Below are positions 2,173 through 22,149 of a stretch of DNA of 64,000 bases, one piece after another (position 1 is the first letter of the stretch; every line of letters begins with the position of its first letter). A program made the translations under genes and the position numbers. Source of the stretch: Asaccharospora irregularis DSM 2635 (GTDB taxonomy: Bacteria > Bacillota > Clostridia > Peptostreptococcales > Peptostreptococcaceae); assembly GCF_900129815.1 (NCBI RefSeq), contig NZ_FQWX01000008.1, forward strand, positions 1-64,000. Direction: 5' to 3'. Under the pieces are notes generated by a model. The model saw nothing but the letters and a program-made list of their open reading frames with translations. It was not told the DNA's origin and made no database searches.

Positions 2173-2390
2173 TGATTAAACCTCCTTGTCAAATTAGATA
2201 AGATAAAATTATCTAATAATATAATATTCATTTGGGACTAGGTTGTTACAATATTATTGAAATGGTTGGATAAAACTTAAATAGCGGTTAAAATATAAAT
2301 ATCGAGGTAACATAAATTGTGTGTAGCTTGAATTATTGCTAAGACTTATGATAAAATAAATTTTATGCTTAGTAAAAATGAGGTGATGTA

Positions 2391-3251: not shown

Positions 3252-3274
3252 AGTAAAAATTATATAATAAACTC

Positions 3275-3317
3275 AAAAAACCTACTGACTAAATAAAATG
3301 TATCTGTAGGTTTTTTT
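3275..3317 (+). terminator. Terminator after the TtcA-like gene
   Basis: AAAAAACCTAC (3275-3285) pairs with GTAGGTTTTTT beginning at 3306 and ends in seven T. Confidence 0.85.
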
Positions 3318-3437
3318 GATTATAAAAAACTAAAAGAGTAGATTCTTAGGGGAAATTTTTGTCTAATGATATTAAGTATAAATTACTCTTGTATAAAATA
3401 TAAGTTAATAAAAAGCTAATACAAGAGGAGGGCTATT

Positions 3438-4610
3438 ATGCCTCATATTAAAAGTTATATAATCACAATATTTAATGTATTTATATGTTTGTCTTCTGTA
3501 TTTATTTTGTTGCAGGCAATTAGGTTTATAGGAGATTTAAATGAAAAGTCGCTGAGAAAAAAAAGAAAAAGAGGTTTTGGCTATAGACAAGATGTATTTG
3601 AAATCAAAGAAGATAAAGTGTACAAAAATAATAGGAGCAGTATCCAAAAAATAGATGGAGAAAAATTATGTAAATATGATAATGGAGATATTTACAAGGG
3701 AGAGTTTTTAAATGGAAAAAAGAATGGCTTTGGAGTATGTGTTTTTCTAAATAAAGAAAGATATGAGGGGCTGTGGAAGGACGATAAAATGCATAGCATA
3801 GGAAAATATACATACAGTGATGGGTCAACTTATAGTGGAGATTTTAAAAATGGATATATGGATGGTCTTGGCAGATATGAGTACAAAAATAAAGATGTAT
3901 ACAAAGGATACTTTAAGGAAAATAAAAAAAATGGAAAAGGCGTAATGCATTACAACAATGGAAGTAGATACATAGGAACTTGGGTAAATGATGAGCAGTG
4001 TGGAACAGGAAAGTTTATAAAGTTTAATGGAGATATATATGAGGGAGAGTTTGAAGGCTCAAAGTTCAATGGAAATGGTAGATATGAGTTTAAAGATGGG
4101 TCTGTCTATACTGGAATTTTTAAAAATAATGTATTCCATGAAAGAGGAGTGTACACAGATAAAAATGGAAATATATATGATGGTGAGTTTCAGTATGGAT
4201 ACAAAAACGGTAATGGTACATTAAAAAAAATAGATGGAGATATATATGAAGGAGATTTCAAAGATGATTTATTTGATGGTAAAGGAAGGTACAAATACCA
4301 CAATAAGGGGATTTATGAAGGTGAATTTAAAAAAGGGAAAAGAGATGGTATAGGAACTTATATTTGTGAAAAATACAAATATATTGGGGAGTGGAAGGAT
4401 GACAAAAAGGGGAAAATAGGGACTTATTACATGGAGTCTGGAGGGGTATTAGAGGTTAGAATAATAGATGAAAAGATAGAAGAGGGCATCTATAAGTTTG
4501 AAGAAGAAAAAGAAAAGATATTAAAGGATATAGATATAAGGGGAGAAAAGGAAGATATTTTAATAGAAAAGTTTAACAAGAAACATCGAAACCATTTCAA
4601 ACATATATAG
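3438..4610 (+). CDS. Membrane-anchored protein with 11 MORN repeats
   Basis: 390 residues. One hydrophobic segment near residues 7-32 is followed by a very basic stretch (KSLRKKRKRG), so the bulk is probably cytoplasmic. From about residue 84 to 330 there are eleven copies of the MORN pattern Y-x-G-x-[FW]-x5-G-x-G (for example YKGEFLNGKKNGFG and YEGEFKKGKRDGIG). The C-terminal 60 residues are highly charged. MORN repeats form extended beta surfaces that bind membranes or proteins; no enzyme domain is seen. It is followed after 31 bp, with no terminator, by an intracellular subtilisin, so the two are probably co-transcribed. Function unknown. Confidence 0.9.
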   Translation: MPHIKSYIITIFNVFICLSSVFILLQAIRFIGDLNEKSLRKKRKRGFGYRQDVFEIKEDKVYKNNRSSIQKIDGEKLCKYDNGDIYKGEFLNGKKNGFGVCVFLNKERYEGLWKDDKMHSIGKYTYSDGSTYSGDFKNGYMDGLGRYEYKNKDVYKGYFKENKKNGKGVMHYNNGSRYIGTWVNDEQCGTGKFIKFNGDIYEGEFEGSKFNGNGRYEFKDGSVYTGIFKNNVFHERGVYTDKNGNIYDGEFQYGYKNGNGTLKKIDGDIYEGDFKDDLFDGKGRYKYHNKGIYEGEFKKGKRDGIGTYICEKYKYIGEWKDDKKGKIGTYYMESGGVLEVRIIDEKIEEGIYKFEEEKEKILKDIDIRGEKEDILIEKFNKKHRNHFKHI

Positions 4611-4641
4611 ATAAATATAAACAAATTTTGGAGTGGTATTA

Positions 4642-5592
4642 ATGAAAAATAAACAAGAAGATTTAAATGTACATCTTTTACCATTTATAATAAATGAAGA
4701 AGTTAGAGGAAATTACTCTAAGCTGCAATATGGTCTAAATATGATACAGGCAAAAAATATCTGGGATGTATCTGAGAAGGGAAGAGGTGTAAATATTGCA
4801 GTAATAGACTCAGGTTGTGATGTAAACCATATAAGTCTAAAAAACAATATAGTCGATGTCAAAAACTTTACTAGTGAAGATGGAAAGTCGCCAAAAGTAG
4901 TAACTGACAATGTAGGCCATGGAACACATGTTGTTGGAACTATAGTAGCAAATGGAAATGATATAATAAGTGGGGTAGCACCCCTTGCTAATATTTATGT
5001 AATAAAAGCAATCGACAAAACAGGATCAGGAAAACTAAGTTGGGTGACAAATGCAATATACTATGCTATAGAAAAAAAGGTAGATATAATATCTATGTCT
5101 TTAGGTATGCCTGAGAGCAATGAAAAACTACACAGGGCAGTAAAATCAGCTGTAAATAAAAACATACTGTTTGTATGTGCAGCAGGGAATGAGGGGAGTT
5201 TGGACACAGAGGATTATAAGTATTCATATCCAGCTGCATATGAAGAGGTGATTTCTGTAGGTGCAGTAGACAAAAAAGCAGCACCGGCCAGTTTTACAAA
5301 CTCAAACTTAGCGATAGATGTTGTAGCTCCTGGTGTTGATATAGTATCTACTTATCCAAACAATCAATTTGCAAGCTTAAGCGGAACTAGTATGGCAACA
5401 CCACACGTTACAGGAAGTTTGGCACTGCTAAAAAATTGGTCTAAAAGTGTGTTTCAAAGGGATTTAACTGAAGAGGAGATATATGCACAACTAATTAAAC
5501 ATACAAAAACATTATCATCGCCAAGAACAGTTCAAGGAAATGGTCTAGTGTCTTTAAAAGAAGAACAAATAAAGAAAAAGGGTAGGAATTAG
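4642..5592 (+). CDS. Intracellular subtilisin-like serine protease (S8)
   Basis: 316 residues from ATG 4642, chosen because TTTTGGAGTGG ends about 8 bases upstream; the GTG at 4633 sits inside that ribosome site. The catalytic triad is intact: Asp56 (VIDSG), His93 (GHGTHVVG), Ser250 (GTSMATPHV), with the oxyanion Asn183 (AAGNEG). There is no signal peptide. The short N-terminal extension carries LLPF near residue 12, resembling the LIPY/F motif by which Bacillus intracellular subtilisins block their own active site until the extension is cut. That makes an autoinhibited cytoplasmic protease the best reading. Likely operon with the MORN gene. Confidence 0.93.
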   Translation: MKNKQEDLNVHLLPFIINEEVRGNYSKLQYGLNMIQAKNIWDVSEKGRGVNIAVIDSGCDVNHISLKNNIVDVKNFTSEDGKSPKVVTDNVGHGTHVVGTIVANGNDIISGVAPLANIYVIKAIDKTGSGKLSWVTNAIYYAIEKKVDIISMSLGMPESNEKLHRAVKSAVNKNILFVCAAGNEGSLDTEDYKYSYPAAYEEVISVGAVDKKAAPASFTNSNLAIDVVAPGVDIVSTYPNNQFASLSGTSMATPHVTGSLALLKNWSKSVFQRDLTEEEIYAQLIKHTKTLSSPRTVQGNGLVSLKEEQIKKKGRN

Positions 5593-6187: not shown

Positions 6188-6237
6188 ATGCTGTAGGTAT
6201 GCTTGTTTAAGAACAAACTTACCTACAGCATTTTATT
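6188..6237 (+). terminator. Terminator after the DEDDh exonuclease
   Basis: Eleven-base arms ATGCTGTAGGT (6188-6198) and ACCTACAGCAT (6221-6231) with a T-rich tail (TTTTATTT). Confidence 0.85.
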
Positions 6238-6331
6238 TATAATACTATACAAATTGTAACTTTTAGTGTTCAAACTTGAACTAGATTCATATTATATAAA
6301 GACAGAATAATATTTTCTAGGAGTTGAAGCT

Positions 6332-6634
6332 ATGATTATTGACATTGATGTGTTTATAGATAAATTGGAGTTTAGTATATTCAGTATAGAAAATCAGTAC
6401 AAGAAATATATTCTAAAAGATAAAATCATAATACCAATATCTTTTGATGTCGGTAATAGATTAAGCTATTTAAGAAAATTTATATCTATTTTATTGCGTC
6501 AACATAAAATAGAAATGGCATACTTACATACAAATGATAATTTATATACAGAAGATTTAAGTATTGATATTATAAAAATAATTGGGGTAATGGAAGAATT
6601 ATTTTCTAGTTGTGGGGTAGAGCTATGCAAATAA
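6332..6634 (+). CDS. Unrecognised 100-residue partner of the Ser/Thr kinase
   Basis: I do not recognise this family. The protein is 100 residues, mixed alpha/beta by eye, has no signal peptide or metal-binding pattern, and carries two Cys near the C-terminus (SSCGVELC). The kinase gene starts at 6625, inside its last codons, so translation is coupled and both products are probably made together. A role as regulator, substrate or adaptor of the kinase is an inference from position only. TAGGAG lies upstream of the ATG at 6332. Confidence 0.75.
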   Translation: MIIDIDVFIDKLEFSIFSIENQYKKYILKDKIIIPISFDVGNRLSYLRKFISILLRQHKIEMAYLHTNDNLYTEDLSIDIIKIIGVMEELFSSCGVELCK

Positions 6635-7653
6635 ATCCAAAATTTAATTTAAGAATAATAAAAAAAATACATTCTGAGGGAGTAAACTCAGCGCTATACC
6701 TTGCGGAGGACACTCAGCTTGGGTCTATTTTTATAATTAAGCAAATGGACAAGGAAAAATTTAAAAATACGGATAGATATTTTGAAGAATCCAAAAAAAC
6801 AAGTAATCTAGAACATCCAAATATAATACCAATAAAGTATGCATCTCATGATGATAAATATGTCTATATAACTATGCCATACCTAAAAAACGGATCATTG
6901 TATAACATTATAAAAAATAGAAACCTGACTATGAGAGAAGTAATAAAATATTCAGTAGATTTTTTATCAGCTATATACTATATTCATGAAAAGGGAATTT
7001 TACATTGTGATATAAAACCAAATAATATTTTGATAAGCGATGATAATAAGGCTATTTTGACAGACTTTGGTTCTGCAGTATACCTAAATAACAATGGTTC
7101 TGCGAAACTCAGAAATGTATATTATAAACATATAGCACCAGAACAATGTAATAACTTAGTGATAGATAAGAGATTAGATATATATCAGATAGGGACTACT
7201 CTTTATCGAATGTGTAATGGAAATGAGGAGTACAATAGACAGGCCAAGAAATACAAAGGTTTAAATAATTTGAAAATTGCCTGTGCTAGGGGCAGCTTTC
7301 CAATAAGGAAAAAATACTTACCTCATGTTCCAAGAAAGATGATACTCATTATTGAAAATTGCCTAAAGGTAAATCCAAATGAGAGATATAAAAATGTAAT
7401 GGATATAATAAATGATATATCACTAGTAAATGAAAACTTGGATTGGGTATATGAGAAAATAAATAGAGATAGATACAAATGGAGTTTAGAGGATAGTACT
7501 AGAAATATAAAAATTATTTTGTACAACGAAGATAGCTCTTGGAGTATAGATGTATATACAAATAATAGGAAAAAAACTATTGAAAATATTGAGAGCAAGG
7601 CATATGGGTATAGAGTTGTAAGAGGTATTATAAACAAATACGAAAAAAAATAG
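6625..7653 (+). CDS. Hanks-type serine/threonine protein kinase with divergent motifs
   Basis: 342 residues from ATG 6625 (GGGGTAG at 6613-6618; an in-frame TTG at 6610 is less likely). Kinase landmarks: Lys39 (FIIKQ), a helix-C Glu near 54-55, catalytic loop HCDIKPNN with Asp129, Lys131 and Asn134, DFG at 147-149, APEQ at 171-174, and Arg in the ERYKN segment of subdomain XI. The glycine-rich loop is degenerate (HSEGVNSALYLA) and HRD is HCD, so it is a non-RD kinase not relying on activation-loop phosphorylation in the usual way. There are no PASTA repeats and no membrane segment. The last 70 residues form an extra domain with Trp and Tyr residues that I do not recognise. All catalytic residues are present, so activity is plausible. 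Confidence 0.9.
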   Translation: MQINPKFNLRIIKKIHSEGVNSALYLAEDTQLGSIFIIKQMDKEKFKNTDRYFEESKKTSNLEHPNIIPIKYASHDDKYVYITMPYLKNGSLYNIIKNRNLTMREVIKYSVDFLSAIYYIHEKGILHCDIKPNNILISDDNKAILTDFGSAVYLNNNGSAKLRNVYYKHIAPEQCNNLVIDKRLDIYQIGTTLYRMCNGNEEYNRQAKKYKGLNNLKIACARGSFPIRKKYLPHVPRKMILIIENCLKVNPNERYKNVMDIINDISLVNENLDWVYEKINRDRYKWSLEDSTRNIKIILYNEDSSWSIDVYTNNRKKTIENIESKAYGYRVVRGIINKYEKK

Positions 7654-7686
7654 CCTTACTCCATTCCGATCGAGTAAGGCTATTTA
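7649..7686 (+). terminator. Terminator overlapping the kinase stop codon
   Basis: Thirteen-base perfect arms, AATAGCCTTACTC (7649-7661) and GAGTAAGGCTATT (7672-7684). The stop codon of the kinase lies in the left arm. The T tract is short. Confidence 0.75.
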
Positions 7687-7984
7687 AGGGTAAAATATAT
7701 TATAAAAAGGGGTTCTTAGGGAATATATTTTATTTTGGGGAGTAAATAATCGGTTATTAGGGGAATAACCTTAGAAATATAATAACAAATTTCGACAAAA
7801 ACTGCAACGAAAATTATAAAAATAATACAGTAAAATCTGAGGTAAATTTTGTTTATTATGAATTATTAAACTATACTAGATTTTTAATAATTTATTATTA
7901 ATTTCAAGAAATGTAAAAAGTAGCTAAAATAATGTATGAAGAAATTTCCTATGGGTAAAATATATACAAGACTAGGAGGTTGTT
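7687..7984. other. Gene-free stretch with two further hairpins
   Basis: No ORF. Two stem-loops follow the kinase terminator: arms AAAATATATT/AATATATTTT (about 7692-7701 and 7722-7731) whose loop contains GGGGTTCTTAGGG, and GGTTATT/AATAACC (7752-7758 and 7764-7770) whose loop is AGGGG. The remainder is AT-rich; the promoter of the exported-protein gene must lie in the last 100 bases but I cannot fix it. Confidence 0.5.
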
Positions 7985-8461
7985 ATGAAAAAGAATATTT
8001 TAGTTACTATTTTAATTATAGCTTGTATATGCATAACATCAGGTATATCAGAGGCAAAGACAAAAAAATACTGTAAAGATATCTGGGTTAATAACACAAA
8101 CTGCAATGACATAAAAATAGAAGTACTGGATGTGGACTTATTAAAGGAACCTGTATATATAGACAAAGATTATTTGGGATCGGCAATACTAACTATGAAA
8201 ATTACTAATAAAGGGATATACGATATGGAACTGTCCAACATTGATATATACCCATATCAGGGTAAAGAACCAACAAAGTACTTTGTAAAGACTTCTGATG
8301 ATGATGTAACTGGCTTTATTGGAAATTTAAGAAGTGGAGAAAGTAAAAAAATAAAGGTAGGGGTAGCACTTAATAATATAAGTCAACCTATAAAAATGCA
8401 ACTTTCCAATATAGAGGATAGGGAAGAAGAAACAGTAATAGAAAGTATAAGGTTAAGATAA
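7985..8461 (+). CDS. Small exported protein, unknown function
   Basis: 158 residues beginning with a classic signal peptide (MKKN, hydrophobic ILVTILIIACICITSG, then SEAK; cleavage probably after the Ala near residue 24). The mature part is about 130 residues of predicted beta structure, with segments such as GSAILTMKITNKGIYDMELSNIDIYP and SGESKKIKVGVALN that resemble the immunoglobulin-like fold of DUF4352/telomeric-repeat-like extracellular proteins. That fold call is tentative. There is no lipobox. GGAGG immediately precedes the start, and a terminator follows. Confidence 0.75.
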   Translation: MKKNILVTILIIACICITSGISEAKTKKYCKDIWVNNTNCNDIKIEVLDVDLLKEPVYIDKDYLGSAILTMKITNKGIYDMELSNIDIYPYQGKEPTKYFVKTSDDDVTGFIGNLRSGESKKIKVGVALNNISQPIKMQLSNIEDREEETVIESIRLR

Positions 8462-8499
8462 AGATCAAAAAGAATATATATTTTAAAGTATTACTTTAG

Positions 8500-8540
8500 A
8501 GGTGCCTATTAAAATTTATAATTAATAGGCACCTTTTTTC
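8500..8540 (+). terminator. Terminator after the exported-protein gene
   Basis: Thirteen-base arms AGGTGCCTATTAA (8500-8512) and TTAATAGGCACCT (8522-8534) followed by TTTTT. Confidence 0.9.
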
Positions 8541-8566
8541 TGTTTAAAACCTTACAATTTTGTTCT

Positions 8567-8595
8567 TTGATTTATTTTAATCAACAATGTATAAT
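8567..8595 (+). promoter_or_regulatory. Sigma-A promoter for the glycosyltransferase gene
   Basis: TTGATT (8567-8572), 17-bp spacer, perfect TATAAT (8590-8595), 26 bp before the ATG at 8622. Confidence 0.7.
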
Positions 8596-8621
8596 TAATC
8601 CTATATAATAAGGAGGAGACT

Positions 8622-9530
8622 ATGAGTAATATCGATAAAAATGAAAATAATAGGATAAGACGTAGAAAAGTTAGTAGCAATTCAATTTCTAATCCTGCGT
8701 TTGATAATGAAAATTACAAAGTAAATAGAAAAGATAATAATAGGATTAATAAAATAAATCGTTCTAATAATAGTTCTGAATTAAAAAGAAAAAAGAAAAG
8801 CAAAAGCAAGGCAAAAAGGCATATAATATTTAAACTAGCTAAAGGATTTTTATTATTAATGTTAGTAGGATTAATATTTTTATCTACTGTGGGGCTAGTA
8901 TTTACAATGATTTCTGTAAAAGATTCCCCAAAGGTAACCAAAGAGTTGATAGAATCTAAATACGTGAGTAGTATGCCTGTGAGTACAGAACAAATACCGC
9001 AAAACCTAAAAAATGCTGTTGTAGCTATAGAAGATGAGAGGTTTTATAAGCATAAGGGAGTAGACGTAATATCTTTGACAAGATCCGTTATAAATAATAT
9101 CTTTAGTGATACTACCCAAGGAGGAAGTACTATTGATATGCAGGTTTCTAAGAACTTATTAACAGATAATGAAAAGACTATAAAGAGAAAAGTAAAGGAT
9201 ATATATAATGCAAGAAATATGAATAAAGTAATGAACAAAGATGAAATATTGACAACTTACTTAAATAATATATACCTAGGAAAATCAACTTATGGGGTTG
9301 GAAAAGGATCAAAAATTTATTTTGGTAAAGATGTTAGTGAGTTAAACTTAGCGCAGTGTGCAATGTTAGCTGGCATAACTAATAATCCGGTTAGATATAT
9401 GAATCATGATGAGGCAAAGAAACGACAAGAAACTGTTTTATACAAAATGCATGAGTTAAAATATATTACAGATAAAGAGTATAGTGATGCATTATATGAT
9501 CCAGTTCCATTTAAATCAGAAATAGGATAA
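8622..9530 (+). CDS. Monofunctional peptidoglycan glycosyltransferase (GT51)
   Basis: 302 residues: a basic cytoplasmic N-terminus (about 1-72), one membrane anchor (about 74-98), then a GT51 domain. Motif 1 is IEDERFYKH with catalytic Glu137; motif 2 QGGSTIDMQVSKNLL; motif 3 KRKVKD; motif 4 DEILTTYLNNIYLG. There is no transpeptidase domain, so it would polymerise lipid II glycan chains without cross-linking. At the position usually written RKxxE the residue is Asp193, a conservative change of the second acidic residue. It is followed after 16 bp by a DUF3785-like gene in the same transcript. Its own sigma-A promoter is at 8567-8595. Confidence 0.9.
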   Translation: MSNIDKNENNRIRRRKVSSNSISNPAFDNENYKVNRKDNNRINKINRSNNSSELKRKKKSKSKAKRHIIFKLAKGFLLLMLVGLIFLSTVGLVFTMISVKDSPKVTKELIESKYVSSMPVSTEQIPQNLKNAVVAIEDERFYKHKGVDVISLTRSVINNIFSDTTQGGSTIDMQVSKNLLTDNEKTIKRKVKDIYNARNMNKVMNKDEILTTYLNNIYLGKSTYGVGKGSKIYFGKDVSELNLAQCAMLAGITNNPVRYMNHDEAKKRQETVLYKMHELKYITDKEYSDALYDPVPFKSEIG

Positions 9531-9980: not shown

Positions 9981-10021
9981 AATAAGAGGGAGAACACAAA
10001 AAGTTCACCCTCTTATTTTTT
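9981..10021. terminator. Bidirectional terminator between convergent genes
   Basis: AATAAGAGGG / CCCTCTTATT arms (9982-9990 and 10008-10016) with TTTTT on the plus side and a complementary A-rich flank. It overlaps the stop codon of the minus-strand SIMPL gene. Confidence 0.8.
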
Positions 10022-10691
10022 AATATGGATAAGTCTTAAAGCTAGCCTCAATCTCGGCTGTAATCCTTGCCTGACCTGGTGCTATATCTGGAATATATCC
10101 GTAGCTAGTAGGAGAATAATATGTAATAGAATAAAGTGGAGAGCTAATTTCTCTTACTTTAACAGGAGAAGGGCTATATTTTAAATTGAAGCTACTAGCT
10201 AAGTATGCTATTTTATTTAGAGCATCTTGAGATGCTCTTCTTAGGGCGCTACTATAGTAGTTTGAAGGATTTGATAGCATAAAGGTCAAGTTTATATTAT
10301 CATTTGCACCATTTTCTATTAACAGTGAGTAGATATCATGTAGTTTGGAAAAATCTTTAGTCGTAATAGCTATGACATGGTTAAACTCATAATAAGATAA
10401 GTCGTCATCTCCAGAATCATAGTGTTTAGATACTGATATATCCTTGTCGTATATATTGTCTTGGGCAATCCCAGAATCTATTAAACTTTTTATTATAGTG
10501 CTTGAAATCTCGTTATTTTTATCTTGTGCGATTTCCAAGCTACTATCTCTTGTAGATATTTTTGCACTTATTAATACCACGTCAGCTTTGACCTCTATAG
10601 TACTTGTTCCACTTATAGTAAAAATACCACTACTGTCATTAGACGAATTTGGAATTTGTGCGTTTCTGTACTGCATATTTCTATATTGCAT
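10020..10691 (-). CDS. SIMPL-domain protein (DUF541)
   Basis: 223 residues. The core from about residue 20 begins GIFTISGTSTIEVKADVVLISAKI and ends QARITAEIEASFKTYP, the pattern of SIMPL/DUF541 proteins (BP26/YggE relatives), which form ring oligomers. Bacterial members have been linked to oxidative stress and to kinase signalling complexes, but the function is poorly known. Unusually there is no signal peptide; the N-terminus has a short duplication MQYRNMQYRN. GAGGTG precedes the ATG. It is transcribed convergently to the DUF3785-like gene. Confidence 0.85.
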   Translation of the reverse strand: MQYRNMQYRNAQIPNSSNDSSGIFTISGTSTIEVKADVVLISAKISTRDSSLEIAQDKNNEISSTIIKSLIDSGIAQDNIYDKDISVSKHYDSGDDDLSYYEFNHVIAITTKDFSKLHDIYSLLIENGANDNINLTFMLSNPSNYYSSALRRASQDALNKIAYLASSFNLKYSPSPVKVREISSPLYSITYYSPTSYGYIPDIAPGQARITAEIEASFKTYPY

Positions 10692-10798
10692 ATTAAAATC
10701 ACCTCATCAAAAATATTCTATTATCCTTAAATTATATTCAACGCTTATAGAGTTTATGAGATAATAGAATTGAAACCAAAACAGGAGGATGTTGTATA

Positions 10799-12745
10799 TT
10801 GAAGAGGGTAATAGGTATTATAGCTTCAGATATTGAACTAAAGCAGAGAATAGAGAGGTTGTATTCTAGTGATATAGAGAATGGAAATATAATAATTGAT
10901 ATTTTAAATTTAGATTTGCTAGAAGAACAAGGAAAGATACTAGTGGAAAAAGGGGCACAGGCTATTATCGGTAGAGGTGGAGGATATAACCTAATACTAG
11001 ATACAGTAAATGTTCCTGTAATCCCACTAAATATGAAGGTAATAGATCTTTTAAAATATATCAAGGTTGCTAGCACTTACTCTAAAAAAATAGTTTTGGT
11101 GTTGGGGTATGATGAGGTATATTTTGATTATGATGAGTGGAGACCAGTAATAGATGTTGACTTGACTGAGGAGTGGTTTAAGTCAAAGTTTGAAATAAGG
11201 GAAAAGGTTTTGAAGTACTTAAATCAAAAAGATGATGTGGTGATAGTCGGAGGGGGAATAGCCTGCTCTTTTGCAAGACAATATGGTATGGATAGTGTTT
11301 TTATAAATGCAAGTGATAACTCTATAAAAGAGGCTATTGATTATTGCAAAAACCTTTTGGACTCTTTGGAGAATGAGAAGTTTCATAATGAGGTGCTGAG
11401 AAATATATTAGATGGTATAAAGGATGGAATAATAGCTATAGATAGCAATGGAAGTGTACTACTTTACAATGAAAGTATAAGCAAAATATTAAATATAGAT
11501 AAAACAGAAGTTCTAAATAGAAATATTTTAGAGGTTTTGCCGAGCATGGGTTGGATTTTGGAGTGTCTAAGGACAAATAAAAACAGCGATGGTAAAATAA
11601 GAACTATAAATAATTTTACGGTAAATACATCTGCAACACTGATAAAAGTAGACGATGATACTTGCGGAGTCTTAGGAATAATTCAAGATATCACAAAACT
11701 GCAAAAACTTGAAAGAAAAATAAGATTTGATTTAAATAAAAAAGGTATGTATGCAAGGTATACTTTTGATGATTTTATATTTAAAGATGAAATCACAAAA
11801 GAGTTTATCAAAGAGGCTAAGAAAATAGGCAAAACAGATTATACAGTGCTGCTTTATGGTGAGAGTGGTTCAGGAAAAGAGATATTAGCTCATAGTATAC
11901 ATAATATAAGTAGAAGAAAAGAAAAACCTTTTGTGGCAGTAAATTGTGCTACTATATCTGAAAGTTTGCTTGAAAGTGAACTATTTGGATATGAGGAAGG
12001 AGCATTTACCGGGGCTAGGAAAGGCGGAAAACCGGGACTTTTCGAGTTAGCACATGGTGGAACTCTGTTTTTAGATGAGATAAATAGCTTGTCTTTAAAT
12101 TTTCAGGCCAAACTCCTTAGGGTTATAGAAGAAAGACAGATAATGAGAATTGGGTCTGATTATATAGTACCTTTAGATATTAGGATTATAGCTGCGACAA
12201 ATGAGTCTTTGCACAAGAAAATTAAAGAAGGAACTTTTAGGGCAGATTTATTCTACAGACTTAGTAGTTTGGAGGTGGATATACCTCCACTTAGAGAGAG
12301 AAAAGAAGATATAATTTTGCTTTTTAATAACTTTGTAAATGAAATACTAAAAAGTGAGGAAAAAGAATATTTAGATACTTTAGATAAGATTTATAACTTA
12401 ACAGATTGTGAGGTACATAAGCTAAAAGAATATAATTGGCCGGGAAATGTGAGGGAAGTCAAAAATGTGGCTCAAAAGTATGTTATTACAGGAAAAGTAA
12501 GGTTAAATGAATGTGAATACACAGAGGGTATTGGTGCTGATTTGGACAATAACATAAGACAAATAAGTGATAGAGAATGTATTGAACTTAATAAAATGAG
12601 TATCGATATAAAACAAATAAATAGATACGTAGAAGAAAAAGTAATAGATATCTTACTTAAACAAGGTCTAAGTAAGGGTGAGGTAGCCCAGATTTTGGGG
12701 ATAAGTAGGACATCTTTATGGAAAAAGTACAATAAAAATACTTAA
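10799..12745 (+). CDS. Sigma-54-dependent activator with PrpR_N sensor and PAS
   Basis: 648 residues starting at a TTG (AGGAGG at 10783-10788, no in-frame ATG nearby). Domains: PrpR_N-type sensor about 1-190, PAS about 200-300, AAA+ about 325-560 with Walker A GESGSGKE (354-361), sigma-54 contact GAFTGA (401-406), Walker B TLFLDE (422-427), and a C-terminal Fis-type helix-turn-helix ending SRTSLWKKY. The PrpR_N fold in relatives senses small carboxylates. The next operon has an exact sigma-54 promoter and a double dyad lies between, so this protein very probably activates aminotransferase-iorA-iorB-buk. The inducing ligand, perhaps a 2-oxo acid, is an inference. Confidence 0.93.
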
Positions 12746-12843: not shown

Positions 12844-12891
12844 TTTATTGTTCATAAAAATTAACATATGTTAACTTTTATGAACAATAAA
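12844..12891. promoter_or_regulatory. Paired dyads, likely upstream activator sites
   Basis: A 48-bp inverted repeat (24-bp arms, one mismatch) that resolves into two 18-bp dyads, TGTTCATAAAAATTAACA (12849-12866) and TGTTAACTTTTATGAACA (12869-12886), centres 20 bp apart. It is about 145 bp upstream of the sigma-54 -24 element and just after the activator gene, the usual place for enhancer-binding-protein sites. Binding is inferred. Confidence 0.75.
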
Positions 12892-12953
12892 ACTAAGTGG
12901 CAGGTATAAATATTTTGAAGTTAATTAGGACAACTACATATTAAAATAAGAAG

Positions 12954-12977
12954 ACCAAGTTATTTACTTGGTTTTTT
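12954..12977 (+). terminator. Terminator between the activator sites and the sigma-54 promoter
   Basis: ACCAAGT (12954-12960), five-base loop, ACTTGGT (12966-12972), then TTTTT. It would stop transcription coming from the activator gene before the ior operon. Confidence 0.75.
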
Positions 12978-13033
12978 AATGAAATACGTTATATAAAAAA
13001 ATAAAATATTGAATTTACAGAAAATTAAGAAAT

Positions 13034-13048
13034 TGGCACGAGCATTGC
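13034..13048 (+). promoter_or_regulatory. Sigma-54 (-24/-12) promoter
   Basis: TGGCAC (13034-13039), five bases, TTGC (13045-13048): an exact match to the sigma-54 consensus, 37 bp before the GTG start of the aminotransferase. It is the only such match I noticed outside coding sequence in the window. Confidence 0.93.
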
Positions 13049-13085
13049 TATAATAAAAGTAAATATTATATTTAGGGGTGATGTT

Positions 13086-14357
13086 GTGGTAAAAAGTATG
13101 GCTGCTAAACATGCTATATGGCCAAGGGAAAATGACATTATATTTAATTTATCAGAAAGGGCTCAAAGGGCAGAGAAAGTAACAGGAAAAGATAACGTAA
13201 TAAATGCAACTATAGGCGCACTTATGGATGATGATGGAAAGTTAATAACTATGGAATCAGTTTACAAAGAGTATAAAGAATTACCTAATGGGGAGATAGG
13301 TGCTTATGCCTCTTTAGCAGGTCAACCTGATTATATAGAATCAGTAAAAAAAATATTTTTCAGAGAGTATATGCCTGATGCTCATATAAGGGTAGTAGCT
13401 TCTCCAGGAGGAAGTGGAGCTATAAAGTTGGCTTTATGGAACTATACAAATATTGGTGATGAGATATTAACATCAGATTGGTTTTGGAGTCCATATGTAA
13501 GTATAGCTGAGGAAATAGATAGAAAGGTAGTTACTTATAAACTATTTAATGAAGGAAATAGTTTTAATTTAACTTCTTTTAAGGAAAATTTCTTGAGAAT
13601 AGCTGATAAACAAGAAAGAATTTTTACAATTATAAATACACCGGGGCACAATCCTACTGGATATAGTGTATCTGATGATGAGTGGGATGAAATTTTAGAT
13701 TTATCAAAAGAAGTTGCTAAGGATGAAAGCAAAAAAATAATGATATTTGTGGATGCAGCATATATAGACTTTGCAGGGGATGACAAGGTTATTAGAAAGT
13801 TTTTTAGAAAGTTTTCAAATCTACCAGAAAATATATTGGTGATGGTAGGGTTTAGTATGTCAAAGGGATTTACTGCTTATGGAATGAGGATGGGAGCTGT
13901 AATTGGAATAACATCAGATGAGAATATAGCGGAGGAATTCCACTATTCATGTGTTCATTCATGTAGGGCGAATTGGTCAAATTGCAATAGAGGTGCTATG
14001 GCTATTCTTTCTAATATAGTAAAGGACCAAGAAAAGTTTAATTTATATGAAGAAGAGAAAAAAATATACAAAGAAATGTTAAGTGTAAGGGCAAAGGCAT
14101 TTGTAGATGAATCAGAAAAAATAGGGCTGGAAATTCTTCCTTATAAAGCTGGATTTTTTATTAGTATACCTTGTGATAATCCGAAAGAATTATGCGAGGA
14201 ATTGACAAAAGACAATGTGTACACAATTCCACTAAAAATGGGATTGAGATTTGCTGTTTGTGCTGTATCTGAGAGCAAATGTAAAATTGCACCAAAGATA
14301 ATAAAAAATGCAATGGAATACTTAGAAAGCAAAAAGGTGGCAACATCAGAAGTATAG
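13086..14357 (+). CDS. Class I/II aminotransferase (PLP) of the ior operon
   Basis: 423 residues. Starts at GTG 13086 (AGGGGTG at 13074-13080); an in-frame ATG at 13098 is an alternative. PLP-binding residues are recognisable: GGSGAI near residue 100, an NTPGHNPTG segment near 190, and SMSKGFTAYGMRMG near 260, where the Lys forms the Schiff base. This is a fold-type I aminotransferase. Its position directly before iorAB suggests that it turns aromatic or branched amino acids into the 2-oxo acids that IorAB oxidises; the exact substrate is not visible. Confidence 0.9.
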   Translation: MVKSMAAKHAIWPRENDIIFNLSERAQRAEKVTGKDNVINATIGALMDDDGKLITMESVYKEYKELPNGEIGAYASLAGQPDYIESVKKIFFREYMPDAHIRVVASPGGSGAIKLALWNYTNIGDEILTSDWFWSPYVSIAEEIDRKVVTYKLFNEGNSFNLTSFKENFLRIADKQERIFTIINTPGHNPTGYSVSDDEWDEILDLSKEVAKDESKKIMIFVDAAYIDFAGDDKVIRKFFRKFSNLPENILVMVGFSMSKGFTAYGMRMGAVIGITSDENIAEEFHYSCVHSCRANWSNCNRGAMAILSNIVKDQEKFNLYEEEKKIYKEMLSVRAKAFVDESEKIGLEILPYKAGFFISIPCDNPKELCEELTKDNVYTIPLKMGLRFAVCAVSESKCKIAPKIIKNAMEYLESKKVATSEV

Positions 14358-14389: not shown

Positions 14390-16174
14390 GTGAAAAAATT
14401 GATGACAGGAAATGAAGCTATAGCTCGTGGGGCTTATGAAGCTGGGGTGAGATATGCATCTGCATATCCTGGGACTCCAAGCACTGAGATATTAGAGAAT
14501 ATAGCAACTTATAAGGGTGATGTAGTTGCAGAGTGGGCGACAAATGAAAAGGTAGCACTAGAGGCAGTTATAGGTGCATCAATTGCAGGTGCTAGAAGTA
14601 TTGCGTCTATGAAACATGTAGGGGTAAATGTTGCAGCAGATCCGTTGTTTACATACTCATATACAGGTGTAAATGGTGGAATGGTTTTGGTTACAGCAGA
14701 TGAACCAGGTATGTATTCATCGCAAAATGAGCAGGACAACAGAAATTATGCTAAGTTTGCAAAGATACCTCTGTTTGAGCCATCTACTAGTCAAGAAGCT
14801 AAGGATATGATAAAAGTAGCTTTTGATTTGAGTGAAAAGTATGATACTCCTGTATTATTTAGAGTTACAACTAGGTTATGTCACTCAAAAGGTATAGTTG
14901 AGTGTTTTGATAGAGAAGAGGTTGCAATCAAAGACTATGTTAAGGATGCCAAAAAAAGAGTTACTGTTCCTGCAAATGCAAAATTAAGAAGAGTTAAAGT
15001 AGAAGAAAGAATGAAAGAACTTGAAAGTTTCTCAAACAGTACAGAACTTAACTACTATGAAATAAATGATACAAAGATAGGTATAGTTGCATCAGGAATG
15101 TGTATAAACTTTGCTAAAGAAGTTTTTAAAGAAGATGCATCATACATGAATCTAGGATTTACTAATCCTATGCCAATAGAAAAAATAAAAGAATTTGCAC
15201 AAAAGGTTGATAAAATATATGTTGTAGAGGAAAACGATCCCTTTATAGAAGAACAAATGAAAGCTAGTGGTATAGAGTGTTTTGGAAAAGATGTACTTCC
15301 GACATATGGGGAGATGACTCCAGATGTAATAAGAAAGGCTATACTTGGGGATGAAAATCAAACTAGAAAATTCAATGAAGATTTAGTTGTACCTAGACCA
15401 CCGAGTTTATGTGCAGGATGTCCCCACAGAGGATTTTTCTATGAAATAGGAAAAAGAAAAAATTTGATGATAGCAGGAGATATAGGTTGTTATACTTTAG
15501 GGTTCGCACCACCTTATAATGCTATGGACTTTACGGTTTGTATGGGTGCAAGTTTAAGTGCGGGGCATGGTGCACAGAAAGTATTTAACATGAAAGAAAA
15601 TAACAATATAAGAGTTGTGGGAGTATTAGGTGATTCAACATTCTTCCATACAGGAGTAAACTCACTTTTAGATGTTGTTTATAATAGAGGTAATTCTATA
15701 TCAGTAATACTAGACAATAGAATAACTGGTATGACAGGGCACCAGCAAAATCCAGGAACAGGATATACTCTTCAGGGAAAAGAAACTAAAGAAGTAGATA
15801 TTGAAATGTTGGTTAGAGCTTGTGGAGTGGATAAAGTAAGAGTTATAAATCCAAATGATTTAGGTGAGGTAAATGAAGCATTGGACTGGGCAATTGCACT
15901 TGATGAACCATCAGTAATAATAACTAGATGGCCTTGTGTATTAAAGAAAATATCTGAAAAAGAGGTAGAAGAATTTAATAAACCATTTAAATCTAAGTTT
16001 GAGGTAGATCATGAAAAATGTATAGGTTGTAGACTTTGTATAAAAACAGGATGTCCATCCCTATCATTTGATAAGGAAAATAAAGTGGCAAATATAGATA
16101 AAAATCAATGTGTGGGATGTGAAGTATGCTCACAAGTATGTCCAAAACAAGCCATATCAAAGGAGGAAATATAA
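14390..16174 (+). CDS. iorA: Indolepyruvate ferredoxin oxidoreductase, alpha subunit
   Basis: 594 residues, usual length for IorA. Starts at GTG 14390 with GGAGGA at 14377-14382. N-terminal pyrimidine domain (TGNEAIARGAYEAGV), central TPP-binding region with GDIGCYTLGFAPP and GDSTFFHTG, and a C-terminal ferredoxin domain with two Cys sets (CIGCRLCIKTGCP and CVGCEVCSQVCP). Some spacing in the first set differs from CxxCxxCxxxC (an extra residue before the last Cys), as is common in IorA. With IorB it oxidatively decarboxylates aryl-pyruvates to acyl-CoA with ferredoxin as acceptor: an oxidative Stickland step. It is followed at once by iorB. Confidence 0.97.
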   Translation: MKKLMTGNEAIARGAYEAGVRYASAYPGTPSTEILENIATYKGDVVAEWATNEKVALEAVIGASIAGARSIASMKHVGVNVAADPLFTYSYTGVNGGMVLVTADEPGMYSSQNEQDNRNYAKFAKIPLFEPSTSQEAKDMIKVAFDLSEKYDTPVLFRVTTRLCHSKGIVECFDREEVAIKDYVKDAKKRVTVPANAKLRRVKVEERMKELESFSNSTELNYYEINDTKIGIVASGMCINFAKEVFKEDASYMNLGFTNPMPIEKIKEFAQKVDKIYVVEENDPFIEEQMKASGIECFGKDVLPTYGEMTPDVIRKAILGDENQTRKFNEDLVVPRPPSLCAGCPHRGFFYEIGKRKNLMIAGDIGCYTLGFAPPYNAMDFTVCMGASLSAGHGAQKVFNMKENNNIRVVGVLGDSTFFHTGVNSLLDVVYNRGNSISVILDNRITGMTGHQQNPGTGYTLQGKETKEVDIEMLVRACGVDKVRVINPNDLGEVNEALDWAIALDEPSVIITRWPCVLKKISEKEVEEFNKPFKSKFEVDHEKCIGCRLCIKTGCPSLSFDKENKVANIDKNQCVGCEVCSQVCPKQAISKEEI

Positions 16175-16175
16175 C

Positions 16176-16769
16176 ATGACTAAAAATATTATTTTGGTAG
16201 GTGTAGGAGGACAAGGAACTATACTTGCAAGTAAGTTATTGACTACAGGCTTGATGGAAGCGGGATTTGACGTAAAGATGAGTGAGATACATGGCATGAG
16301 TCAAAGAGGTGGTTCAGTATCATCGCAAGTTAGATATGGCAAGTGTGTACATTCTCCTGTTATAGAAATGGGAACGGCTGATATATTAGTAGCGTTTGAA
16401 AAAATGGAAGCACTAAGATACACTAAATACCTTAAAGAAGACGGGAAAATAGTTGTAAATAAATTCAAGGTAGACCCAATGCCTGTTTTAATAGGAGGGG
16501 CAGAGTACCTTGAAAAAGAAATAGATGAGGAATTTGAAAAATTAAACGCTGATGTAATAGATGCAGCTAACAAGGCAGTAGAACTTGGAAATGCAAAAGT
16601 AATGAATATTATATTATTGGGTAGCTTGGTTAAATCTATGCAATTAGAACATATAGATTGGGAAAATATAATAAGAGAAAATGTAAAACCGAAGTTTATA
16701 GATATAAATATAAAGGCATTTAATGAAGGTATGAAATTAATAAGTAAAGAAAGCCTTCAAGAAAACTAA
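16176..16769 (+). CDS. iorB: Indolepyruvate ferredoxin oxidoreductase, beta subunit
   Basis: 197 residues from ATG 16176, just after the iorA stop, with a perfect AGGAGG at 16161-16166. The N-terminus NIILVGVGGQGTILASKLL and the motif MSEIHGMSQRGGSVSSQVRYG are characteristic of the gamma-type domain of 2-oxo acid:ferredoxin oxidoreductases. It forms the heterodimer with IorA in the cytoplasm. Confidence 0.97.
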   Translation: MTKNIILVGVGGQGTILASKLLTTGLMEAGFDVKMSEIHGMSQRGGSVSSQVRYGKCVHSPVIEMGTADILVAFEKMEALRYTKYLKEDGKIVVNKFKVDPMPVLIGGAEYLEKEIDEEFEKLNADVIDAANKAVELGNAKVMNIILLGSLVKSMQLEHIDWENIIRENVKPKFIDINIKAFNEGMKLISKESLQEN

Positions 16770-16841: not shown

Positions 16842-17915
16842 ATGACTTACAGAATATTGGCGATAAACCCAGGATCTACTTCAACTAAAATTGCAGTATA
16901 TGATAATGAAGAGCAGATACTATCAAAGACAATAAACCATTCAGCAGAGGAAATAGCTAAGTATCACAATATACAGGAACAATTTAAGATGAGAAAAGAG
17001 TCAATCTTAAATATTTTATCTGAAAACGATATAGAACTTGAGAGCCTGAGTGCAGTAGTTGGAAGAGGGGGGCTGCTTCCACCTGTAAAATCAGGTGCAT
17101 ACTTAGTAAATGATGAAATGATAGATAGACTAAAGCATAGACCAATATTAGACCATGCTTCTAATCTAGGGGCTATGATAGCCTTGGAAATATCAAAACC
17201 ACTAGAAATAAACTCATATATATACGATTCAGTATCGGTAGATGAGATGATGGATATAGCTAGACCTTCTGGAATTTGTGGTATGGACAGAGAGTGTTTA
17301 AGCCATGCACTAAACTCTAGAGCTATGGCGATAAAGTGTTGTGACAATAAGGGTATGGATTATAACTTATCAAACTTAATAGTTGCACACTTAGGTGGGG
17401 GTATAAGTGTAAGTGTTCATGAAAAAGGAAAGATGGTCGATATTGTATCAGATGATGAAGGCTCATTCTCTCCAGAAAGATCGGGAAGAGTTCCTTGCAA
17501 AAAACTTATAAATGCTTGTTTTTCAGGGAAGTACACTCATAAGGAAATGCTAAAAATGGTAAGAGGAAAAGGGGGAATAGTTTCTTATTTAGATACTGTA
17601 GACCTTAGAGATGTAGAAAAAATGATGAATGATGGAAATGAAAAGGCTAAGCTTATATTTGAAGCTATGGCGCTTCAAATAGCTAAAAGTATAGGGGAAC
17701 TAGCGACTGTAGTAGATGGGAATGTAGATAATATAGTTATAACAGGGGGAATTGCATATTCGCAGAAGATGACTTCAATGATTAAAAAAAGGGTAGAATT
17801 TATAGCTCCAGTAGAGATTCTTCCAGGGGAAAATGAATTAGAATCTCTTGCTTATGGAACTCTTAGAGTGTTACGAGGTGAAGAGGAAGCTAGAATTTAT
17901 AAAGAAAAAAACTAA
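16842..17915 (+). CDS. buk: Butyrate kinase family acyl kinase
   Basis: 357 residues, full length. ASKHA-fold motifs: NPGSTSTK near residue 9, GRGGLLPP near 77, AHLGGGISVSVHEKG near 183, and GSFSPERSGRVP near 210. Butyrate kinases convert acyl-phosphate plus ADP to acid plus ATP. No phosphotransacylase is next to it. Its place at the end of the aminotransferase-iorAB operon suggests that it harvests ATP from acyl-CoA made by IorAB (aryl- or branched acyl), after phosphotransacylation encoded elsewhere; substrate is an inference. A 72-bp gap separates it from iorB with no terminator. Confidence 0.93.
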   Translation: MTYRILAINPGSTSTKIAVYDNEEQILSKTINHSAEEIAKYHNIQEQFKMRKESILNILSENDIELESLSAVVGRGGLLPPVKSGAYLVNDEMIDRLKHRPILDHASNLGAMIALEISKPLEINSYIYDSVSVDEMMDIARPSGICGMDRECLSHALNSRAMAIKCCDNKGMDYNLSNLIVAHLGGGISVSVHEKGKMVDIVSDDEGSFSPERSGRVPCKKLINACFSGKYTHKEMLKMVRGKGGIVSYLDTVDLRDVEKMMNDGNEKAKLIFEAMALQIAKSIGELATVVDGNVDNIVITGGIAYSQKMTSMIKKRVEFIAPVEILPGENELESLAYGTLRVLRGEEEARIYKEKN

Positions 17916-19113: not shown

Positions 19114-20028
19114 ATGGATAAGGACTTGACATATAAGATTAAGGAATTAAAGAAAGAAAAAAATGCGAGGATACTTGCACATTACTATCAGCCACCTGAA
19201 ATACAGGATTTGGCAGACTCGGTGGGGGACTCATATTATTTAAGTGAGATAGCTAGGGACTGTCCTGAAGATGTAATTGTATTTTGTGGGGTTAAGTTTA
19301 TGGGGGAGAGTGCTAAGATATTATCACCTGACAAAAAAATACTTATGCCTAGTCTTGATGCTGGATGTTTTATGGCGGATACAATAAACGAAGAGGGTGT
19401 AAAAAAGTTAAAACAAGAACATCCAGATGCTTTAGTGGTTTGTTATATAAACTCTACAGCAAATGTAAAAGCTTACTGTGACGTATCGGTTACATCGGCT
19501 AGCGCGATAAAAATACTTAACAATATTTCTACCAAAAAAATAGTATTTTTACCAGATAAGAATCTAGGTGAGTATATAGCAGAGCAATTCCCAGAAAAAG
19601 AATTTATATTTTGGGATGGGTGTTGCAAATACCATAACGATATAAGTGTATACGAAATATTAGAATTAAAGAAAAAGTATAGTGATGCAGAGGTTTTAGT
19701 ACATCCGGAGTGTAAAAAAGAGATAAGGGAATTAGGGGATTATGTTGGAAGTACATCTGGAATAATAAGTTATGCAAATGATAGCAATAATAAAAACTTC
19801 ATAGTAGCTACTGAAGAGGGGATATTGCACGAACTAAACAAAAACAATCCAGATAAAAACTTTTTCATACCAGGCAAAAATGTTTTATGTCCAGATATGA
19901 AGAAAACTACACTAGAAAATTTATATTCTACCCTTTTAAATATGGAAAATGAAGTAGATGTAGAGGAGTCTATAAGGGAAAAGGCGCTTAACTCTCTACT
20001 TAATATGCATAAATTAGCGGAGGCGTAG
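19114..20028 (+). CDS. nadA: Quinolinate synthase A
   Basis: 304 residues. Typical features: ILAHYYQPPEIQDLADSVGDSY near the N-terminus, CGVKFMGESAKILSPDK, the Cys ligands for the [4Fe-4S] cluster (in CGVKFMGE, in the GCCKYH/HPEC region and in CPDMKKTT). NadA condenses iminoaspartate with dihydroxyacetone phosphate to quinolinate in de novo NAD synthesis; it acts with NadB, whose gene follows with a 2-base gap. Confidence 0.97.
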   Translation: MDKDLTYKIKELKKEKNARILAHYYQPPEIQDLADSVGDSYYLSEIARDCPEDVIVFCGVKFMGESAKILSPDKKILMPSLDAGCFMADTINEEGVKKLKQEHPDALVVCYINSTANVKAYCDVSVTSASAIKILNNISTKKIVFLPDKNLGEYIAEQFPEKEFIFWDGCCKYHNDISVYEILELKKKYSDAEVLVHPECKKEIRELGDYVGSTSGIISYANDSNNKNFIVATEEGILHELNKNNPDKNFFIPGKNVLCPDMKKTTLENLYSTLLNMENEVDVEESIREKALNSLLNMHKLAEA

Positions 20029-20030
20029 TG

Positions 20031-21335
20031 ATGGCTTTTAAATATGATGTTTTGATAGTTGGAAGTGGTGTTTCAGGGTTGTATTGTGCTTTAAATTTAG
20101 ATGAAAATCTAAATGTGGCGGTAGTATCAAAGTCGAGTTTGGATAATAACAACACATATTTAGCACAGGGGGGAATCTCTACGGCAAGAGATAAAGATGA
20201 CATAGAGTCATTTATAGAAGATACATTAAAAGCTGGTCAATATGAGAATAAGATAGAGGCAGTTGAAATCTTGGCTAAAGAATCAATAGAGAACATAGAA
20301 CAAATAGTAAGATACGGAATGCCTCTAGATAAAGAAAACGGGGAAATAGATTATACAAGGGAAGGCGCTCATAGTATAAATAGGATAGTGCACAGCAAGG
20401 ATAACACAGGTGAAATTGTGTATAAAACACTGATTAAAGAAGTAAGTAAAAGAGGAAATATAAGTTTAATAGAAGATGCATGTTTAGTTGATATTTTTAC
20501 AGAAAAGGAAAAGTGTATTGGTGCAAGATTTTTAAAAGGGGATCAAGAGTTACATATTTTTTCAAAGGTATTAGTTTTGGCAACAGGTGGAATAGGAGGA
20601 CTGTTTAAAAAATCTACAAACCAAAGGCATTTAACTGGGGATGGAATTGCTATAGCTTTAAAAAATAAAATAAAGATAAAAAATTTAAAATACATACAAA
20701 TTCACCCGACAGCATTTTATGAGGAAAACAATAAGGGAAGAAGAATGCTGATATCTGAATCTCTAAGAGGTGAGGGAGGAAAACTTTTAAATAAAAACAA
20801 AGAAAGATTTGTAGACGAATTATTACCTAGAGATGTAGTATCAAGGGCGATATTTGAACAAATGAAAAAAGACGGGTCTCAATATGTATATTTAGATGCC
20901 ACTCATTTAGGAGAAGAATACTTAAAAAATAGATTTTCATTTATATACAATGAGTGCCTAGCTAGGGGTACTGATATAACGAAGGAACTTATAAAGGTAT
21001 CTCCTGCACAGCATTATTTTATGGGGGGAATAGATGTAGATTTAAAATCAAAAACATCTATGGAAAATTTATATGCAGTTGGAGAAGTTAGTTGTACTGG
21101 AGTGCACGGGGCCAATAGATTGGCTAGCAACTCTTTACTTGAAGGACTTGTTTTTTCAAAAAGAGCTGCAAAAGATATAAATAGAATTGTAGGGAATATA
21201 GACATAAAAGTTAAGAACCTAGACTATATAGATACAACTGTAGATCAGGCTATTTTTGATAATATAAATATTGTCATAAATGAAATAAAAAAGACAAGTG
21301 AGGATTTTAGTGATGAATTATTTGCTTATAGATAA
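20031..21335 (+). CDS. nadB: L-aspartate oxidase
   Basis: 434 residues from ATG 20031 (GGAGG at 20019-20023, spacing 7); a GTG at 20028 overlaps the nadA stop and is too close. FAD-binding GSGVSGLYCALNL at the N-terminus, NNTYLAQGGIS, the substrate loop REGAHSINRIVH, HPTAFYE, and HYFMGGIDVD near residue 325. It oxidises aspartate to iminoaspartate for NadA; in an anaerobe fumarate is the likely electron acceptor. It is at the short end of the family (a long C-terminal helical extension is reduced). Confidence 0.97.
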   Translation: MAFKYDVLIVGSGVSGLYCALNLDENLNVAVVSKSSLDNNNTYLAQGGISTARDKDDIESFIEDTLKAGQYENKIEAVEILAKESIENIEQIVRYGMPLDKENGEIDYTREGAHSINRIVHSKDNTGEIVYKTLIKEVSKRGNISLIEDACLVDIFTEKEKCIGARFLKGDQELHIFSKVLVLATGGIGGLFKKSTNQRHLTGDGIAIALKNKIKIKNLKYIQIHPTAFYEENNKGRRMLISESLRGEGGKLLNKNKERFVDELLPRDVVSRAIFEQMKKDGSQYVYLDATHLGEEYLKNRFSFIYNECLARGTDITKELIKVSPAQHYFMGGIDVDLKSKTSMENLYAVGEVSCTGVHGANRLASNSLLEGLVFSKRAAKDINRIVGNIDIKVKNLDYIDTTVDQAIFDNINIVINEIKKTSEDFSDELFAYR

Positions 21336-22149
21336 GATGATTAAAGAGGCTCTAATAGAGGATGTACCAAATGAGGATATAACTACAAACTCTGTAGTAA
21401 GTAAAGATTCAAAATCTAAAGTAGATCTTATTTGCAAAGAAGACGGAGTTATATCTGGTCTTGATGTGTTTAAAAGGGTATTTGAAATACTTGGTGAAAT
21501 CGAGGTCATACTTTACAAAAAAGATGGAGATAAGGTAAAGCAGTTTGAAAAATTGGCTGTTTTAACAGGAAATACTAGAAAACTACTTGTAGGTGAAAGG
21601 GTTGCTCTAAATTACTTACAAAGAATGAGCGGGATAGCTACACTTACTAGCAAGTATGTAGAAAAACTAAATGGTACTAACATCAAGCTATTAGATAGCA
21701 GAAAAACGATTCCAAACCTTAGAATACTGGATAAGTATTCTGTTAAAGTTGGAGGAGGGCATAACCATAGATTTAATTTATCAGATGGAATATTGCTAAA
21801 GGATAACCATATTGATGCGGCAGGTGGAGTGAAAAGTGCTATCGAGCTAGCTAGAAAAAATGCATCTTTTGTTAGAAAAATAGAGGTGGAAGTTGAAAGC
21901 CTAGATATGGTGAGAGAGGCTGTAGAGTCTAAGGCAGATATAATAATGCTAGATAATATGGACTTAGATACAGCTAAGGAGGCTCTTAAAATAATAAATA
22001 AACAGGCACTAGTTGAATTCTCAGGAAATGTGAACTTAGAAACTATAGAATCTATATCAAAACTAGGAGTAGACTATGTTTCTGTTGGTGCTTTAACTCA
22101 TTCGGTCAAAGCCTTAGACATAAGTATGAAAAACTTAAGAAATATATAA
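21313..22149 (+). CDS. nadC: Nicotinate-nucleotide pyrophosphorylase (carboxylating)
   Basis: 278 residues from ATG 21313, overlapping the end of nadB by 23 bp; GTGAGG at 21298-21303 is the likely ribosome site. Motifs EDVPNEDITT, GERVALNYLQRMSGIATLT, DSRKTIPNLR, KVGGGHNHRFNLSDGILLKDNH are those of QAPRTase. It makes nicotinate mononucleotide from quinolinate and PRPP. It is the last gene of nadABC. Confidence 0.97.
   Translation: MNYLLIDKMIKEALIEDVPNEDITTNSVVSKDSKSKVDLICKEDGVISGLDVFKRVFEILGEIEVILYKKDGDKVKQFEKLAVLTGNTRKLLVGERVALNYLQRMSGIATLTSKYVEKLNGTNIKLLDSRKTIPNLRILDKYSVKVGGGHNHRFNLSDGILLKDNHIDAAGGVKSAIELARKNASFVRKIEVEVESLDMVREAVESKADIIMLDNMDLDTAKEALKIINKQALVEFSGNVNLETIESISKLGVDYVSVGALTHSVKALDISMKNLRNI

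Follow-up and report, generated by a model that had tools for sequence, protein, structure and literature searches.

A probable ZypR-type sigma-54 control region in Asaccharospora irregularis, with paired predicted activator sites inside a single near-perfect palindrome

The window analysed here, a stretch of 64,000 nucleotides from Asaccharospora irregularis DSM 2635, very probably holds the region that controls a sigma-54 regulon of the ZypR type, with an aminotransferase-iorAB-buk operon as its target. The ZypR regulon has been described previously; the window is thus a further member of it rather than a new system, and its analysis extends a described switch of amino-acid fermentation to another genome and explains the parts of that switch. 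What goes beyond the known system is an apparent overlap between enhancer and transcription terminator in relatives of the window, which we put forward tentatively, at slightly less than even odds.

The activator gene (10799-12745, forward strand, as are all genes of the locus described here) encodes a ZypR ortholog with PrpR_N and PAS domains, an AAA+ domain with GAFTGA, and a Fis-type HTH. It matches the Pfam families PrpR_N (4.8e-25) and Sigma54_activat (2.2e-66), its translation contains the GAFTGA motif, and its C-terminal 49 residues match HTH_8 with a score over the cut-off; it thus has the make-up of an enhancer-binding protein, that is, an AAA+ domain with GAFTGA and a C-terminal Fis-type HTH. 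It is orthologous to CD2383 and adjoins tyrB-iorAB-butK, the two marks of a ZypR ortholog. The operon opens with a tyrB-like class I/II aminotransferase (13086-14357; Pfam Aminotran_1_2, 1.2e-34), followed by iorA, the alpha subunit of indolepyruvate ferredoxin oxidoreductase (14390-16174; NCBIfam TIGR03336, 719 bits), iorB, the beta subunit of indolepyruvate oxidoreductase (16170-16769; NCBIfam NF005325, 285.6 bits; its start is probably the ATG at 16176), and buk, butyrate kinase (16842-17915; NCBIfam TIGR02707, 467 bits), the last three all scoring over their cut-offs. Because of these enzyme names and the annotation in PMC7438776, the operon is taken to degrade aromatic amino acids. The genome encodes a single rpoN (Sigma54_DBD, one match, 6.7e-61). 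Downstream of the operon, three successive genes look like nadA, nadB and nadC (19114-22149).

Between activator and operon lie two exact TGTT-N10-AACA dyads, both predicted upstream activator sites on the forward strand (TGTTCATAAAAATTAACA, 12849-12866, and TGTTAACTTTTATGAACA, 12869-12886), with a start-to-start distance of 20 bp; their position and spacing are kept in orthologs. They have the TGT-N10-12-ACA form of a ZypR site, upstream of the operon and as a conserved pair. Single dyads of this kind are not rarer than chance (four in the window, where 2.0 are expected); the exact pair at 20 bp, however, occurs once in the 2.62-Mb genome, in which no second pair is found at up to two mismatches and in which matches with three mismatches do not exceed the background given by a reversed control pattern. 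Given this genome-wide uniqueness and the conservation of the pair, we reject chance as the source of the dyads. The two dyads together form one near-perfect palindrome of 48 bp (12844-12891, 23 of 24 pairs, no strand assigned), which folds as RNA with its flanks at -21.2 kcal/mol; in the window it does not have the form of an intrinsic terminator, as it is followed by ACTAAGTGG and not by a T-run. The centre of the dyad pair lies 167 bp from the GG of the -24 element, which belongs to an exact -24/-12 promoter on the forward strand (TGGCACGAGCATTGC, 13034-13048) that is conserved in orthologs. The ZypR promoter pattern TTGGCAT-N5-TTGCT is matched by TTGGCACGAGCATTGCT, downstream of the dyads, with a C in place of the consensus T at a single position; the pattern TGGCAY-N5-TTGCT has six exact matches in the genome, against none for its reversed control.

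A hairpin with a T-run between dyads and promoter (12953-12977, forward strand) resembles an intrinsic terminator and presumably ends the activator transcript. It shows the stem-loop followed by a T-run that is typical of such terminators (GACCAAGTTATTTACTTGGTT and then TTTTAATG, 12953-12981), with a short and weak stem of -8.8 to -9.1 kcal/mol; a comparable site arises in 3% of shuffles of the interval. The anatomy agrees with the earlier note, which had described two TGTT-N10-AACA dyads 20 bp apart at 12849-12886 (both are exact), a terminator at 12954-12977 (present, though weak at about -9 kcal/mol), and an exact TGGCAC-N5-TTGC at 13034-13048 (now seen to be the sole exact match in the window), placed in that order between a PrpR_N/PAS/AAA+ activator and aminotransferase-iorA-iorB-buk. 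It had overlooked that the dyads form a single, covarying palindrome, that relatives apparently use this palindrome as a terminator, and that the system had a prior description.

Activators at 65-72% identity, and more distant ones, precede the same genes in other genera, and the dyad pair persists in the orthologous loci even where the surrounding DNA has diverged. Among the 20 other loci of the same family that have the activator, the best dyad pair has a spacing of 20 bp in 18, and of 21 bp in L147 and L158; a -24/-12 element lies downstream of the pair in every one of the 20; orthologs in other families mostly have the 21-bp spacing. The aminotransferase is absent next to iorA in L147, L155 and L158, and the operon is altered in L154 and L159-L164; most of these loci nevertheless retain the order of activator, site and promoter. 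The activators of L165 and L166 (genus g10) resemble the query strongly only beyond residue ~290, and their N-terminal sensor half is just 34% identical; the sensor has thus diverged, in contrast to the sites and to the AAA+ and DNA-binding parts, which have been retained.

A terminator-like hairpin (at most -8 kcal/mol, plus a T-run) occurs between the activator stop and the -24 element in 39 of 40 loci of the ZypR group, where about 1.0 is expected from dinucleotide shuffles; insulation thus belongs to the design almost without exception. In a mixed set of distant activators, drawn from a protein-alignment scan and comprising, among the matches listed, 39 loci with a downstream -24/-12 element, such a hairpin is present in 21 and missing from 18; it lies apart from any TGT-N10-12-ACA site in 20 and overlaps one in a single locus, a count that is too low insofar as the true sites of distant activators may differ from TGT-N10-12-ACA. 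Several Clostridia of families other than that of the window (L153, L155, L160, L161, L168, L172, L174) have an insulating terminator whose T-run abuts or enters the TTGGCA of the -24 element.

These comparisons support what the earlier note had drawn from the single locus. The insulating terminator is nearly universal among related loci; the argument that both dyads face the same side of the helix holds, since spacings of 20 bp and of 21 bp each come near two turns of B-DNA; and the dyads, whose loss from relatives with the same operon had been named beforehand as grounds for refutation, occur as a pair at 20-21 bp in each of the 20 same-family loci. The reading of the whole as a sigma-54 regulatory unit is backed by the conserved dyads and -24/-12 element and by sigL data from C. 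difficile (PMC7438776).

The activator would bind both dyads side by side, about two helical turns apart and on one face of the DNA. Its PrpR_N/PAS part would sense a metabolite and bring the protein into its active state, in which it would loop to the sigma-54 RNA polymerase at 13034-13048, leading to transcription of aminotransferase-iorAB-buk. The terminator between dyads and promoter would stop the activator transcript in vivo before it enters the operon, preventing unregulated read-through.

In some relatives, enhancer and terminator appear to coincide. The only terminator-like hairpin in g21 (L137), g17 (L138-L145, the C. difficile-like group) and g10 (L157, L165, L166) is the dyad pair itself, joined to a T-run; these fused hairpins are long palindromes with folding energies of -15 to -21 kcal/mol. 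In g8, g3, g12, g13, g16 and f3 g51, whose dyads stand as direct repeats or make only a weak fold, a separate terminator follows further downstream. Outside the family, a similar overlap is found in L176, where it takes in both dyads, and in L163, L164 and L170, where the second dyad is the stem. In an alignment of the palindrome from 19 loci, both partners have changed in 12 of the 22 pairs, with a covariation score of 0.294, as against 0.118 after shuffling and ~0.1 after sliding; pairing inside each single dyad shows no covariation in excess of the shuffles in the same alignment. With one sequence taken per genus, 12-14 of 15 variable spacer and flank positions pair within a lineage, compared with 4-9 of 15 when the halves are swapped between lineages. 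The TGTT/AACA boxes, in contrast, are nearly invariant across species, which fits their being read by a protein. Spacers that covary although the protein does not hold them constant are poorly explained by protein binding, whereas selection for a hairpin would account for them. With the palindrome kept and a weak terminator standing apart from it, the window has the look of an intermediate; its placement is not firm on the IorA tree, which requires ~2-3 changes between the fused and separate states.

In ZypR-type loci, the sigma-54 enhancer may thus carry two codes: the activator would recognise the boxes in the DNA, and the covarying spacers and flanks would form the intrinsic terminator in the activator mRNA. 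Enhancer and insulation of the operon would then be one sequence, and evolution would exchange fused for separate arrangements, with the window between the two; we lean slightly against this fuller account, as we do against its corollary that the hairpin of the window is a remnant, or a stabiliser of the mRNA 3' end, besides being an enhancer. This dual reading supplements the ZypR-regulon explanation and does not replace it. It draws on covariation that spans the whole palindrome and stays at the shuffled level inside the dyads, on pairing that is better within than between lineages, on the complementary distribution by which g21, g17 and g10 have the hairpin and T-run with no other terminator and the loci lacking such a hairpin have a separate one, and on the recurrence of the overlap in other families (L163/L164, L170, L176). 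Against it stand the stems, which are mostly A-U, and the ~2-3 state changes on the tree, owing to which the association within the family rests on few independent events. A search of the open-access literature found no relevant report of an overlap between enhancer and terminator, which is a weak negative. If the dual reading is true, the fused form is a compact arrangement, with a single sequence acting both as activator site and as transcription stop, and it ties the binding site of the activator to the 3' end of the activator's own gene, as a possible roadblock or feedback.

The strong hairpin and its covariation would also fit a palindrome that serves the activator gene only as a bidirectional RNA hairpin or terminator, with other sites activating the operon; the boxes, however, stay nearly invariant while their surroundings change, the pair keeps its 20-21 bp spacing with no strong hairpin in L149-L151, L153, L155, L172 and L174, and the palindrome of the window has no T-run. 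We consider this highly improbable and reject a role solely as RNA hairpin, since boxes and spacing survive where the hairpin does not. Perfect palindromes can also serve as repressor operators, and the palindrome might be the operator of an unrelated repressor, or else the remnant of a mobile element; this is the least credible of the readings, given that the palindrome is linked to the activator-operon pair in many genera, that the dyad pair is unique in the genome, and that the dyads match the motif class published for ZypR (PMC6615313).

Two further intervals of the window's genome have a comparable appearance; the names PrdR-like, CdsR-like, prdA-like, prdC-like and cdsB-like used for them are assumed from resemblance. 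Upstream of a prdC-like gene on the reverse strand (L182:9997-11316, G000:C47) lies AAAGTGTCTATAAATAGACGGTGTCTATTTATAGACACTTTTT, in which two TGTCTA-N4-TAGACA dyads of the PrdR type make up a hairpin that has a T-run. It is placed ~200 bp ahead of an exact -24/-12 element and is possibly another enhancer-terminator overlap. This proline-reductase region contains three prdA-like frames (1-854, 953-1396, 6188-7963) and two prdC-like genes (8096-9382, 9997-11316). A prdA-like gene of this genome lies downstream of a PrdR-like activator and is accompanied by a TGTCTA-N4-TAGACA dyad as well as by a terminator of its own standing apart from the dyad. After a CdsR-like activator, a hairpin-terminator is followed by a cdsB-like gene: in L183 (G000:C17), between a GAFTGA activator (2370-3779) and the cdsB-like gene (4049-5353), the hairpin AAAAAGTCTCAAAATGATACGAAATATCATTTTGAGACTTTTTT comes directly after the activator stop and is succeeded by another TTGAGAC half; it is possibly a terminator merged with a CdsR site.

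Among known systems, enhancers of the NifA/FhlA type (TGT-N10-ACA) share the dyad architecture of the activator site, a comparison drawn in PMC6615313. They differ from the system of the window in activator family and target. For these enhancers, we know of no overlap with a terminator. The C. difficile 630 operon CD2382-iorAB-butK has the same gene order and a -24/-12 promoter as in the window; the operon has been assigned to CD2383/ZypR (PMC7438776), and its promoter, TTGGCATAGTAATTGCTTA, occurs letter for letter in L143, a C. difficile-like locus from a genome of the window's family, with the same gene order and an activator ~70% identical to that of the window. In a sigL mutant of C. difficile, expression of this operon falls to 0.2-0.01 of wild type, that is, 5- to 100-fold, a dependence on SigL that rests on transcriptomics (Soutourina et al. 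2020, PMC7438776); the sigL test proposed in the earlier note has thus already been done in a relative. L143 differs from the window in that a T-run follows its enhancer pair and no separate terminator is present, whereas the window has a separate one. There is likewise a close resemblance to the ZypR regulon tyrB-iorAB-butK of Clostridiales, predicted for Clostridioides, Clostridium and Romboutsia with sites of the TGT-N10-12-ACA type (Nie et al. 2019, PMC6615313): the main text makes no mention of a fixed 20-21 bp pairing, a terminator or a palindrome and hairpin, and what it does describe, namely the pairing of activator and operon, the type of site and the sigma-54 promoter, is shared by the window.
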